Origin: Bacteroidota bacterium
Lineage (GTDB): Bacteria > Bacteroidota > Bacteroidia > B-17B0 > Aurantibacillaceae
NCBI GenBank assembly: GCA_030684395.1
Contig: JAUXTT010000017.1
Span: 310,001 to 374,000, forward strand
Direction: 5' to 3'
DNA: 64,000 nt
The notes below the pieces were generated by a model. The model did not search any database, was not told where the DNA came from, and was given only the letters and a program-made list of their open reading frames with translations. Position 1 is the first letter of the stretch. Each line of letters opens with the position of its first letter. Position numbers and translations under genes: made by a program. Below, in pieces: positions 2,752-6,098 of this stretch.

Positions 2752-2861
2752 AACACAGAGATCACTGAGTTTATAGAGTTACACAGAGTTTTGATTTAGG
2801 ATCTCACAAAAACAGTTAGAAAACCTCCGTGAAACTCTGTTATCTCCGCGACCTCTGTGTT
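2752..2861. repeat. Dispersed inverted-repeat element, ACACAGAG family (copy 1)
   Basis: A 110-bp intergenic element with terminal inverted repeats AACACAGAG (2752-2760) and CTCTGTGTT (2853-2861), starting 8 bp after a stop codon. It contains GAGTTACACAGAGTTT and GTGAAACTC, both of which recur in the element at 29728-29853. It has no coding capacity and resembles REP-type palindromic elements. It fills the gap between two convergent genes. Confidence 0.7.
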
Positions 2862-2870
2862 AAAATAGCG

Positions 2871-4109
2871 TTACTCTTTAATACTATACTCATTAATCTT
2901 TCTGTAAAGCGTACGTTCACTGATTCCTAGCTCCTTTGCTGCGTACTTACGTTTACCTTTGTATTTGGAAAGTGCTTTAGTGATCATATCTTTTTCTTTG
3001 TCCGCAAGAGATAAAGATTCTTCAATAATAATTGGTTGTGATGTTTTTGTGCCTGCAGGAATTATTTGTGGATTATGAATAGTGTACGGAAGATTTGTTT
3101 GAACTGTATCTTCATCGTCGTACATTTTATTGATCAGTTGTGCATCATCAGTTGGCATTTCCATCATTGCTCCCTGATTGTATTGAACAATATTATGCAC
3201 TACTTTTTTGAGATCATTCAGATCCTTTTTGAGATCAAATAAAACTTTATATAAAAGATCACGCTCCGACATATCGCCTGAAGAAGCCGATCCTTCCGCT
3301 CTAACAATGCTTGGCAATACGGAAGTATGTTGTTGTGGTAAATATTTTAAAAATGTATCTGCGTTGATCTCTCTTGACTTTTCTATAATAGAAATTTGTT
3401 CCGCAATGTTTTTTAACTGACGAACATTTCCATGCCAGTAAAAATTCACTAACAGTTGTTCTGCTTCTCCATCCAGTTTAATAACCGGCATTCTGTACTT
3501 TGCCGCAAAGTCGGCTGCAAATTTCCTGAACAATAAAAATATATCTTCTTTGCGTTCTCTTAATGGTGGAAGAAAAATTGGAACCGTATTCAAACGATAA
3601 TAAAGATCTTCTCTGAATTTTCCTTTTTCAATGGCAGTTGGTAAATTTACGTTAGTAGCCGCAACAACACGCACATCTGTTTTCTGAACTTTACTAGATC
3701 CAACACGAATGTATTCACCGGCTTCTAATACACGTAATAAACGTGCCTGCGTTGCTAATGGCAACTCACCTACTTCATCTAAAAATATTGTTCCACCATT
3801 TGCAACTTCAAAATAACCTTTACGTGCTTCGTGAGCTCCGGTAAAAGATCCTTTCTCATGCCCGAATAATTCGCTGTCAATTGTTCCTTCAGGAATAGCC
3901 CCACAGTTAACTGCAATGTATTGTCCGTGTTTACGGGTACTGAACTGATGAATGATCTGAGGAAAAACTTCTTTACCTGTTCCACTTTCACCAGTGATCA
4001 ATACACTTAAATCGGTTGGTGCAACTTGTCGTGCAATGTCAATCGCTCTATCTAATGCAGCAGCAGAGCCTATTATTCCAAATCTTTGTTTAACGTCCTG
4101 AATGGTCAT
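2871..4109 (-). CDS. Sigma-54-interaction AAA+ transcriptional activator, Fis-type HTH
   Basis: This 412-residue protein begins directly with the AAA+ module of bacterial enhancer-binding proteins: Walker A GESGTGKE at 40-47, the sigma-54 contact loop GSFTGA at 87-92 (GAFTGA variant) and Walker B GTIFLDE at 106-112. The C-terminus carries a Fis-type helix-turn-helix (KYAAKELGISERTLYRKI). It should hydrolyse ATP to remodel RNA polymerase-sigma-54 at its target promoters. There is no N-terminal receiver, PAS or GAF domain, so no sensory input is visible in the protein itself. A variable linker of about 90 residues lies between the AAA+ and DNA-binding parts. It is downstream of miaB on the same strand, an arrangement frequent in Bacteroidota, but here a four-helix-bundle gene is interposed. 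Confidence 0.9.
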   Translation of the reverse strand: MTIQDVKQRFGIIGSAAALDRAIDIARQVAPTDLSVLITGESGTGKEVFPQIIHQFSTRKHGQYIAVNCGAIPEGTIDSELFGHEKGSFTGAHEARKGYFEVANGGTIFLDEVGELPLATQARLLRVLEAGEYIRVGSSKVQKTDVRVVAATNVNLPTAIEKGKFREDLYYRLNTVPIFLPPLRERKEDIFLLFRKFAADFAAKYRMPVIKLDGEAEQLLVNFYWHGNVRQLKNIAEQISIIEKSREINADTFLKYLPQQHTSVLPSIVRAEGSASSGDMSERDLLYKVLFDLKKDLNDLKKVVHNIVQYNQGAMMEMPTDDAQLINKMYDDEDTVQTNLPYTIHNPQIIPAGTKTSQPIIIEESLSLADKEKDMITKALSKYKGKRKYAAKELGISERTLYRKINEYSIKE

Positions 4110-4114
4110 AGTTT

Positions 4115-4146
4115 AGATGTGAGATGTAAGACACAAGATGCAAGAC
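4115..4146. repeat. Left imperfect inverted repeat flanking four-helix-bundle gene
   Basis: This 32-bp stretch beginning AGATGTGAGATGTAAGA matches, in inverted orientation, the sequence at 4576-4607 at 22 of 32 ungapped positions, including a ten-base core AGATGTAAGA. It lies between the four-helix-bundle gene and the sigma-54 activator gene. Together the two repeats bracket the small gene as a possible insertion cassette. Confidence 0.5.
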
Positions 4147-4172
4147 GCATTTGTGATTACCATCTTCTTTTA

Positions 4173-4535
4173 TTAAATTTCTCTTTCAATTTTTTCTTTA
4201 AAAACAAATATCATTTTTTGAACCTCTTCAACTAATACAAGAGCTTCTTCCAATTCATCGACTTTTCCATATTTCCTTCTTTTGCAAATCAATAATTGAG
4301 TTTCTGCTTCATATGCTGAAGAAAGCGCAATTGATAAAAATTCGGCAAAGTGCTTTTTTGTTCTTTTTCCGCATCCTTCAGCAATATTGGAAGGAATTGA
4401 CACCGAAGACCGATTTAACTGGTCACACAAAACAAATCGTTCTTTTGAAGGTAACGATTCAGTATAAGTATAAATAAGATCGCTCAAATCCATTGATTTT
4501 TGCCAAATCAATAATTTCTTAAAGTTGTGTCCCAT
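4173..4535 (-). CDS. Four-helix-bundle protein (S23/23S rRNA intervening-sequence family)
   Basis: This 120-residue protein belongs to the four-helix-bundle family first seen in 23S rRNA intervening sequences, which also includes the Avd accessory proteins of diversity-generating retroelements. Family hallmarks seen are the N-terminal FKKLLIWQKSMDLSDLIY, the central LNRSSVSIPSNIAEGCGK and the helix FLSIALSSAYEAETQLLI. No reverse transcriptase or variable repeat is nearby, so a retroelement role is not supported here. The biochemical role of stand-alone members is unknown; the basic helical surface suggests nucleic-acid binding. It lies between miaB and the sigma-54 gene on the same strand, with about 78 bp upstream and 63 bp downstream that contain inverted repeats, which suggests a late insertion. 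Confidence 0.87.
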   Translation of the reverse strand: MGHNFKKLLIWQKSMDLSDLIYTYTESLPSKERFVLCDQLNRSSVSIPSNIAEGCGKRTKKHFAEFLSIALSSAYEAETQLLICKRRKYGKVDELEEALVLVEEVQKMIFVFKEKIEREI

Positions 4536-4575
4536 GTTTTTCGTTTTAGATTATGTAAATTGAATATATACTACA

Positions 4576-4607
4576 GTCTAATGTCTAAAATCTTACATCT
4601 AATATCT
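4576..4607. repeat. Right imperfect inverted repeat flanking four-helix-bundle gene
   Basis: Partner of the repeat at 4115-4146; its reverse complement contains AGATGTAAGA followed by TTTTAGACATTAGAC. It lies between the miaB stop codon and the four-helix-bundle start codon. The match is imperfect (22/32), so the pair may be old or may be two copies of a common intergenic repeat. Confidence 0.5.
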
Positions 4608-4612
4608 GAACC

Positions 4613-6046
4613 CTACTCCACAATTCTCCCAATCAAAGTACTCAATGTACAAGTCTCCGCCAACACATTTACATATTCTCCTTTTTTTGCGTCACCCTTA
4701 TCAAACACAACTGTAATGTTTTGTGAGTTTCTTCCACTCCATTGATCTTTCGATTTTTTTGATTGCCCTTCAATTAAAACGCGGTGTACTTTTCCAAGTC
4801 CTTGTTTTGTTCTTAGTCCGCTGCTTTCCGTTTGAATTTCCATTACTTCCTGCAAGCGTTTCTTCTTCACTTCTTCGGGAACATCATCCGCATACTTACG
4901 TTCTGCCAATGTTTTAGGACGTTCGCTATACATAAACATATATGCAAAATCGTATTGAACTTCTTTCATCAACGACATCGTTTCCGCATGTTGCTCATCT
5001 GTTTCACCACAAAATCCGGTAATCACGTCTGTAGAAATTCCGGCATCCGGCATAATTCTTCTGATCGCCGCAACACGATCCAGGTACCACTCACGCGTGT
5101 AACCACGATTCATTTTTTCTAATATTTCACTGTTACCACTTTGAACCGGCAAGTGAACGTATTTACAAATGTTCTCGTATTTTGCCATGGTGTGCAACAC
5201 ATCGTCGATCATATCTTTTGGATGGGACGTTGAGAAACGCACACGAAGATCGGAATGAATCAATGCAACTTTTTCAAGTAGTTGAGCAAAGGTTGTTGAG
5301 TTTGCTTTTTGTTCTTCAGTAAGAATTTCTTTTTTCAAACCTCCACCTGCCCACAGATATGAATCTACATTTTGTCCGAGCAAGGTAACTTCTCTATATC
5401 CTTTATCAAATGCTTCTTTCGCTTCTTTCACAATACTTTCCGGATCACGGCTTCTTTCTCTTCCACGTGTAAACGGCACTACACAAAAGCTGCACATATT
5501 ATCGCAACCCCGCATAATGCTTATAAATGCGCTTACTCCATTATGATCTAAACGAACAGGAGAAATATCTGCGTAAGTTTCTTCCTTACTTAGAATTACA
5601 TTTACAGCTTTTTGTCCGCTCTCCGCTTGTTCAATTAAATTCGGAAGATCACGGTATGCATCAGGGCCAACTACAATATCGATCAATTTTTCTTCATCTA
5701 AAAACTGAGATTTTAAACGCTCAGCCATACAACCCAAAACTCCAATAATGGCGTTTGGATTTCCCTTTTTTACTTTTTTATAATCCTGTAAACGTTGACG
5801 AACTCTTGACTCAGCATTTTCACGAATTGCGCAGGTATTCACAAAAATCACGTCCGCTTCCAAAAAATTTGTGGTGGTAGAAAAGCCCTCTTTCGTTAAA
5901 ATTGAGGCAACTATCTCACTATCAGCGAAATTCATTTGGCAACCATAACTCTCCAGAAAAAGTTTTTTTCCGGCAGAAGGTCCTGCTTCAACCACCAAAG
6001 CCTCTCCCTGCTTGCTCTCGTCTATTATTTTGTTATCGTTTTGCAT
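4613..6046 (-). CDS. miaB: tRNA-2-methylthio-N6-dimethylallyladenosine synthase
   Basis: MiaB adds a methylthio group to i6A37 of tRNAs that read UNN codons, using two iron-sulfur clusters. The 477-residue protein has the N-terminal UPF0004 domain with cluster cysteines Cys36 ([12 protein letters not shown]), Cys72 and Cys106, a radical-SAM domain with the CxxxCxxC motif CDNMCSFC at 181-188, and a C-terminal TRAM domain of about 65 residues. Length and motif order are those of full-size MiaB rather than RimO or MtaB. I chose the ATG at 6046; a start at 6097 would lie inside the predicted promoter and add a hydrophobic extension. It is the first gene of a leftward group with the four-helix-bundle and sigma-54 activator genes. 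Confidence 0.95.
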
Positions 6047-6064
6047 GAAAATTATTAAGGGAGG

Positions 6065-6098
6065 CAAAGATAGGGAATAAATGACAAATTGACGCAAA
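6065..6098 (-). promoter_or_regulatory. Predicted promoter of miaB
   Basis: On the minus strand, TTTG (6098-6095) is followed after 22 bases by TATCTTTG (6072-6065), an exact -7 consensus. The spacer is one base longer than the usual 19-21. Initiation would fall near 6059, about 13 bases before the ATG at 6046. Confidence 0.5.

Follow-up and report, generated by a model that had tools for sequence, protein, structure and literature searches.

Inverted heptad arrays flank an S23-family gene at a miaB junction in Bacteroidota and at related loci in other phyla

The window analysed here is the whole stretch of 64,000 nucleotides taken from contig JAUXTT010000017.1 of a Bacteroidota bacterium. 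Within it, a small gene of the 23S-rRNA-intervening-sequence (IVS)/S23 family, whose product is called IVP below, lies 77 bp past the miaB stop and 63 bp ahead of the start of an activator gene, all three being on the same strand. Both spacers are occupied by an arm made of tandem heptads, five on one side and five plus an extra AG on the other. The features of the locus are as follows.

2871..4109, minus strand: sigma-54-dependent AAA+ activator with a Fis-type HTH; downstream host gene, marks the insertion site
4115..4149, plus strand: arm downstream of the IVP gene, AGATGTG AGATGTA AGACACA AGATGCA AGACGCA; inverted match to 4573-4607
4173..4535, minus strand: IVP gene, 120 aa, 23S-rRNA-intervening-sequence/S23 family (PF05635, TIGR02436) by profile matches and model
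4570..4607, minus strand: arm upstream of the IVP gene, AGATATT AGATGTA AGATTTT AGACATT AGACTGT AGT; inverted match
4613..6097, minus strand: miaB (TIGR01574); upstream host gene, marks the insertion site; bounds are those of the mechanically listed open reading frame

The AG heptads of the downstream arm, written here on the plus strand, are CT heptads on the gene-sense strand.

In profile searches the window IVP scored 124.8 bits against PF05635 (cut-off 33.8) and 117.9 bits against TIGR02436 (cut-off 24). Its AlphaFold2 monomer model consists of four helices with a mean pLDDT of 95.5, and the closest folds in a structure comparison are 2gsc and 2rld, followed by the Avd proteins of diversity-generating retroelements (4dwl, 8ub7). 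The four-helix-bundle gene proposed by a sequence-only reading of this locus is thereby confirmed. The same reading had set the gene between miaB and the gene for sigma-54; the miaB assignment stands (TIGR01574, 453.5 bits), whereas the other neighbour encodes a sigma-54-dependent activator and not sigma-54 itself. A homologue of this activator is present in 78 of the 87 genomes of the GTDB family. We know of no function for PF05635 genes. There are five of them in this genome and at least one copy in 75 of the 87 family genomes. In the wider phylum, 235 of the 296 genomes sampled carry them, with a maximum of 15 per genome.

The inverted match reported earlier for the flanking 32-mers was reproduced precisely: once reverse-complemented, 4576-4607 agrees with 4115-4146 at exactly 22 of 32 positions. 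The match is in heptad register and includes the ten-base core AGATGTAAGA (4122-4131 on the plus strand and 4591-4600 on the minus strand). The top pair of 32-mers reaches 24 of 32. The local score between the two spacers is 16; dinucleotide shuffles average 7.8, and 3 of 5000 scored as high. A promoter and terminator scan found sites no more numerous than in shuffles, and an Rfam search of the window gave no match. Elsewhere in the window (2752-2861), a solo hairpin devoid of any open reading frame lies between convergent genes, its 41-nt arms being 78% complementary and built of CACAGAG/CTCTGTG units. Repeats of this kind resemble those around the GxxExxY genes described below, and similar units were observed.

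Flanks of IVP genes were compared in four sets of loci, namely 69 from the window's family (110-nt flanks), 29 from the phylum, 80 named loci and 80 hold-out loci fetched afterwards; 30 PIN-domain genes from the window's family served as a control. The sets may share genomes. Periodicity was measured as autocorrelation by lag, and the pairing of own arms was compared with that of swapped arms over 20,000 permutations. Most tests were shaped by the first loci seen and just the hold-out heptad count was fixed beforehand. The phylum set began as 30 loci, two of which had a wrong open reading frame; L111 was lost because it had no flank, L117 is among the 29, and both were excluded from later phylum analyses (28 loci).

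Lags of 7, 14 and 21 dominate in the family loci (z of 17, 12 and 8 upstream and 20, 12 and 6 downstream), and the same lags stand out in the phylum loci (10.5, 6.8 and 5.7; 9.7, 5.8 and 5.4), the named loci (20, 15 and 11; 24, 17 and 10) and the hold-out loci (17, 14 and 9; 18, 14 and 7). The arms of one locus also pair with each other better than swapped arms do, at 14.3 versus 9.0 in the family, 15.2 versus 9.0 in the phylum, 16.5 versus 8.9 in the named and 16.2 versus 9.0 in the hold-out loci, each with 0 of 20,000 permutations as high; 54 of the 80 named and 47 of the 80 hold-out loci exceed the 95th percentile of swaps. Seventeen of the named loci lie outside Bacteroidota, in the candidate phyla radiation, Planctomycetota, Ignavibacteriae, Clostridia and other Bacillota, Kiritimatiellaeota, SAR324 and Polyangiaceae, and there own arms reach 16.5 as compared to 8.2 for swapped ones. 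The PIN-domain control genes show no heptad period and a pairing of 9.4 versus 9.0 (1873 of 20,000 permutations). Chance or low complexity as the source of the arms is ruled out by the swapped-arm and PIN controls. One arm comparison at the 30 filled miaB junctions omitted L076 because of its short arm. The signal of a single locus is often weak, with either arm above a z of 3 in 106 of 253 loci, and in one cyanobacterial plasmid (L361) the nearest arms are direct and not inverted; both observations count against reading gene and arms as a cassette.

On the gene-sense strand of 177 loci, the dinucleotide that exceeds its background most at lag 7 is AG in upstream arms (462 versus 129 at other lags) and CT in downstream arms (372 versus 57); 54% of upstream arms contain AG chains of at least three, as compared to 5% of downstream ones. 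The core is therefore usually AG upstream and CT downstream, and its polarity is fixed. Among strongly periodic arms, such chains are found in 103 of 136 (76%) as compared to 37% when heptad columns are permuted. Two observations count against the cassette reading: the other 33 of the 136 have no AG core and often use GT or GTA instead, and a 9-nt unit such as GGGACTAAA is found in some arms at the miaB site. Upstream AG chains of length 5, 4 and 6 number 31, 19 and 10 in the 177 loci, and the hold-out loci give 12, 8 and 5 upstream and 11, 11 and 4 downstream; there is no excess of five-heptad upstream chains among the 69 loci of the window's family (6, 7 and 3). A five-heptad mode would fit a pentamer, but the signal is too weak to claim.

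Arms were further swapped by relatedness among the 253 loci passing a length filter. Nearest relatives with more than 65% protein identity share their arms. At 55-65% identity own arms pair at 15.9 and neighbour-swapped arms at 11.0 (51 to 7, p 8e-10), and at 45-55% the values are 15.8 and 9.1 (32 to 1). Arms that differ below 65% identity and still pair within the locus indicate that the arms turn over faster than the gene while their match is kept. Flanks of related copies, on whose kinship the sequence-only reading had staked its case, are thus related above 65% identity, and below it only the match within each locus persists. The IVP gene itself is under strong purifying selection, dN/dS being 0.02-0.08 in eight of nine pairs tested, the ninth having a saturated dS. 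This anatomy occurs widely with the PF05635 family, and we lean towards viewing the locus as a cassette of the IVS type, about 0.5 kb long, in which an IVP (S23) gene lies between inverted arrays of degenerate heptads in the spacer of co-directional genes.

There are 70 activator loci in the window's family, 69 of them with a readable miaB end. An IVP gene is present at 30 of these junctions and absent from 39, in agreement with the earlier claim that the gene interrupts a conserved neighbourhood. Spacers without IVP are mostly 0-170 bp long and arm-less, and under a strict rule (three or more AG or CT heptads) heptads are found in just 3 of the 39, so the flanks are generally not conserved without the gene. 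On the activator tree the filled state requires 19 changes, at least 14 of them on supported branches, as compared to 22.8 with shuffled labels (34 of 500 shuffles are as low as 19); gain or loss at this one site is frequent. Set beside 39 IVPs of other sites, the 30 miaB-site IVPs group as a single clade (support 100/99), so this subfamily belongs to the site. Site-specific clades imply that movement between sites is rare or old, and this counts against the cassette reading. Compared with transposons and MITEs, the inverted arms are present, and inspection of empty/filled pairs by eye revealed neither a target-site duplication nor a shared target motif, which likewise speaks against a cassette. 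Six junctions without IVP contain other inserts (L017, L020, L086, L102, L103 and L107); that of L017 is a HepT/nucleotidyltransferase pair, L020 looks alike by eye, and the insert of L086 is a PIN gene as judged from its position coinciding with a PIN hit. The miaB-activator junction is an insertion hotspot. At three more IVP-less junctions (L074, L082 and L090) a gene-less hairpin, TTTCAC...GTGGCA or similar, was observed, which is another solo repeat family.

At the miaB site, IVP identity is nearly uncorrelated with host identity (Spearman 0.08). The arms follow the IVP with the host held constant (0.43, p 0.0005) and, more weakly, the host with the IVP held constant (0.21, p 0.0005). The activators of L076 and L081 are 98% identical and their IVPs 50%, while L071 and L100 share 83% in IVP, 77% in the activator and 70% in miaB, and their upstream arms align unit by unit. 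The cleanest case is the pair L081/L084, with an IVP dS of 0.057 versus an activator dS of 0.430 and an identity that falls within both arms; the arrays of this pair differ by 23 nt though the gene is 99% identical. Each junction lies on a single contig, so the discordance is not a product of binning errors. Arms and gene are exchanged laterally as a unit with its edges in the arms, and the proposal that the repeats belong to the gene, both passing between species as one cassette, is upheld.

Such transfers are open to a serious rival explanation, in which the element has no mobility of its own and is carried by natural transformation and homologous recombination through its arms or the flanking genes, the function of the protein being unrelated. 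Every transfer found joins the same junctions, and exchange of this kind could be ordinary recombination; arms of like flavour would provide the homologous ends, as in L081/L084 where the tract ends within the arms, and no mobility enzyme correlates specifically. However, identity in miaB and the activator does not rise consistently beside the cassette in discordant pairs, and the arms of many same-junction cassettes differ so strongly that they give little homology. The element is also present in many unrelated operons, which indicates that new sites have been entered. We consider passive exchange possible, if doubtful, as the full explanation, and the IVS-type cassette remains the reading that we prefer.

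Family-profile searches of six loci were used to identify the host operons. Cassettes sit in the spacers of sdhA/sdhB, an iscA/sufA-type gene/sufB, sufB/sufC, sufS/sufE and hisB/hisH, and another lies between an enoyl-CoA hydratase-type gene and a thiolase. In two of three cyanobacterial plasmids examined (L361 and L363), an IVP gene separates cas6 from cas4 in type I-D CRISPR operons; these two loci have long heptad arrays (AAAAGCT; CAGGTGA). Iron-sulphur proteins (suf, sdhB, miaB, cas4) recur in the host operons of L043, L060, L063, L069, the window, L361 and L363. This theme may be a coincidence. The window locus and the 17 loci from outside Bacteroidota all lie outside rRNA, and no match was found among 50,697 phage records.

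Both neighbours are on the IVP strand at 58 of the 80 hold-out loci and both on the opposite strand at 10, about six of which resemble one shared site by neighbour lengths; placement in the sense of the transcript is thus not obligatory. The co-directional majority would suit a resident regulatory module, in which IVP is a host gene, the paired arms form a cis-acting RNA tuning the downstream gene, and the protein acts as an autoregulator like TRAP. The strong purifying selection on IVP, the fixed polarity of the AG heptads and the presence in operons such as sdhA/sdhB, sufB/sufC, sufS/sufE and hisB/hisH fit this idea as well. It is difficult to reconcile with the gains and losses at the miaB junction, at least 14 in one family and nearly unrelated to host phylogeny, with the lateral exchange of the cassette and with close relatives that do without it, and we regard it as improbable.

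A period of another length was found around GxxExxY (PF13366) genes (L141-L170), whose inverted flanks have a 9-nt period (z of 4.1 and 7.2 at lag 9) and pair at 15.7 versus 10.4 when swapped (0 of 20,000 permutations). These genes are a second cassette class. The period is 7 nt with IVP, 9 nt with GxxExxY and none with PIN, and unit length therefore tracks the encoded protein. The arms could alternatively be a mutational by-product, made and matched by slippage and by switching of template from one imperfect inverted repeat to the other, the protein playing no part. Unit number does vary among close relatives, as by the 23 nt of L081/L084. A second point in its favour comes from the Nostoc tRNA-Leu intron, a group I intron of which the repeats make up a small part and are not known to enclose a gene. 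According to the excerpts of PMC3488679 used here, its heptanucleotide repeats are degenerate, pair into a transcript hairpin and differ in copy number; the cassette arms likewise vary in number of units and are predicted to pair. Dependence of unit length on the protein family and the heptads of IVP genes in distant phyla are not expected from such a process, which makes it a rather remote explanation compared with an IVS-type cassette.

Among enzymes that might move the element, IVP number is unrelated to the number of RVT_1 reverse-transcriptase hits (partial -0.02, p 0.59); 45 of the 75 IVP genomes have no RVT_1 hit and carry up to 10 IVPs, and the sole RVT_1 hit of this genome lies on a contig other than the window's. 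Mobilisation in trans was suggested earlier; in the form of a reverse transcriptase acting as Avd's retroelement enzyme does, it has in its favour the Avd-like fold (4dwl, 8ub7) and is scarcely credible given these counts and an Avd model score of 25.4 bits for the window IVP, against a cut-off of 80. A reverse-transcriptase domain was noted within a 2687-aa open frame at G021:C7:6566-7024. For Y1 transposases (Y1_Tnp), this genome has no hit on the window's contig and 21 of the 75 IVP genomes have none, so the locus does not belong with REP/RAYT elements. IVP number correlates with Y1 transposases (partial 0.29, p 0.0055), and GxxExxY genes do so more strongly (0.36), so the correlation probably reflects general genome plasticity and the Y1 transposase was rejected as the mover. 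The cassette requires no dedicated reverse transcriptase or Y1 transposase. As a whole, the sequence-only interpretation is partly supported.

The closest known parallel is the IVS of 23S rRNA, of which the cassette looks like a counterpart in protein-coding operons. As described in excerpts of PMC4990558, 23S IVSs contain an S23 open reading frame, have complementary ends that are cut by RNase III, and occur sporadically at conserved sites, and the Xanthomonas S23p is a pentamer; the origin and function of rRNA IVSs are still called unclear there. In Coxiella burnetii, the IVS in helix 45 of 23S rRNA is bounded by inverted repeats, is cleaved by RNase III and carries GACAGAT heptamers upstream of S23p (same excerpts), and this array reads CAGATGA in another register, fitting NAGNNNN. 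Shared features are an S23/IVP frame in sense orientation inside a transcribed unit, complementary ends able to pair around it, a size of about 0.4-0.5 kb, tandem heptamers upstream and lateral spread, which for the IVS has been proposed (PMC4990558, excerpts). The window cassette differs in being located in a spacer of protein genes and not in an rRNA helix. In contrast to the Coxiella IVS as excerpted, whose frame is described as decaying (PMC4990558), the protein here is under purifying selection and the arms are heptad arrays on both sides. The four-helix-bundle fold predicted for IVP is like that of Avd, whereas the window IVP falls below the Avd cut-off and its contig has no RVT_1 hit. 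TAACTGA heptamers of Beggiatoaceae, Cyanobacteria and Bacteroidetes (PMC4679880, excerpts) are likewise tandem heptamers in intergenic DNA; unlike the cassette arms, they are direct repeats of one fixed word mainly upstream of start codons, and the terms "four helix", "S23" and "23S rRNA" are absent from the text of that paper. Searches of the open-access literature listed no description of IVP genes outside rRNA that lie between inverted heptad arrays.

It seems plausible to hypothesize that the arms of the transcript pair into an imperfect stem with the IVP gene in its loop, as in the RNase III-cut 23S IVSs, and such a stem might allow the insertion to be tolerated in an operon. In the predicted fold of the window transcript the arms form the closing stem; its z of -2.2 is only mildly unusual and counts against the cassette reading. 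A pentameric IVP ring may further recognise its own NAGNNNN heptads, either as RNA or as DNA at the ends of the cassette, and such recognition would account for the lasting association of arms and protein. TRAP, the tryptophan RNA-binding attenuation protein, is an unrelated 11-mer ring that binds NAG triplets. If IVP binds in the manner suggested, the two would be alike in being rings that read regularly spaced NAG triplets. The sequence data are consistent with the earlier idea that the protein binds the repeat. We offer only tentatively the fuller proposal that IVP/S23 rings read their own arm, one NAG per subunit over five heptads, and that the ring-arm complex spreads and maintains an entire class of minimal selfish cassettes in operons and rRNA across phyla.

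The heptad arms provide PF05635 proteins with a candidate nucleic-acid partner, and the PF05635 genes located outside rRNA are now linked to the intervening sequences of rRNA. Cassettes of about 0.5 kb, having no recognisable mobility enzyme, swap between species within housekeeping operons.
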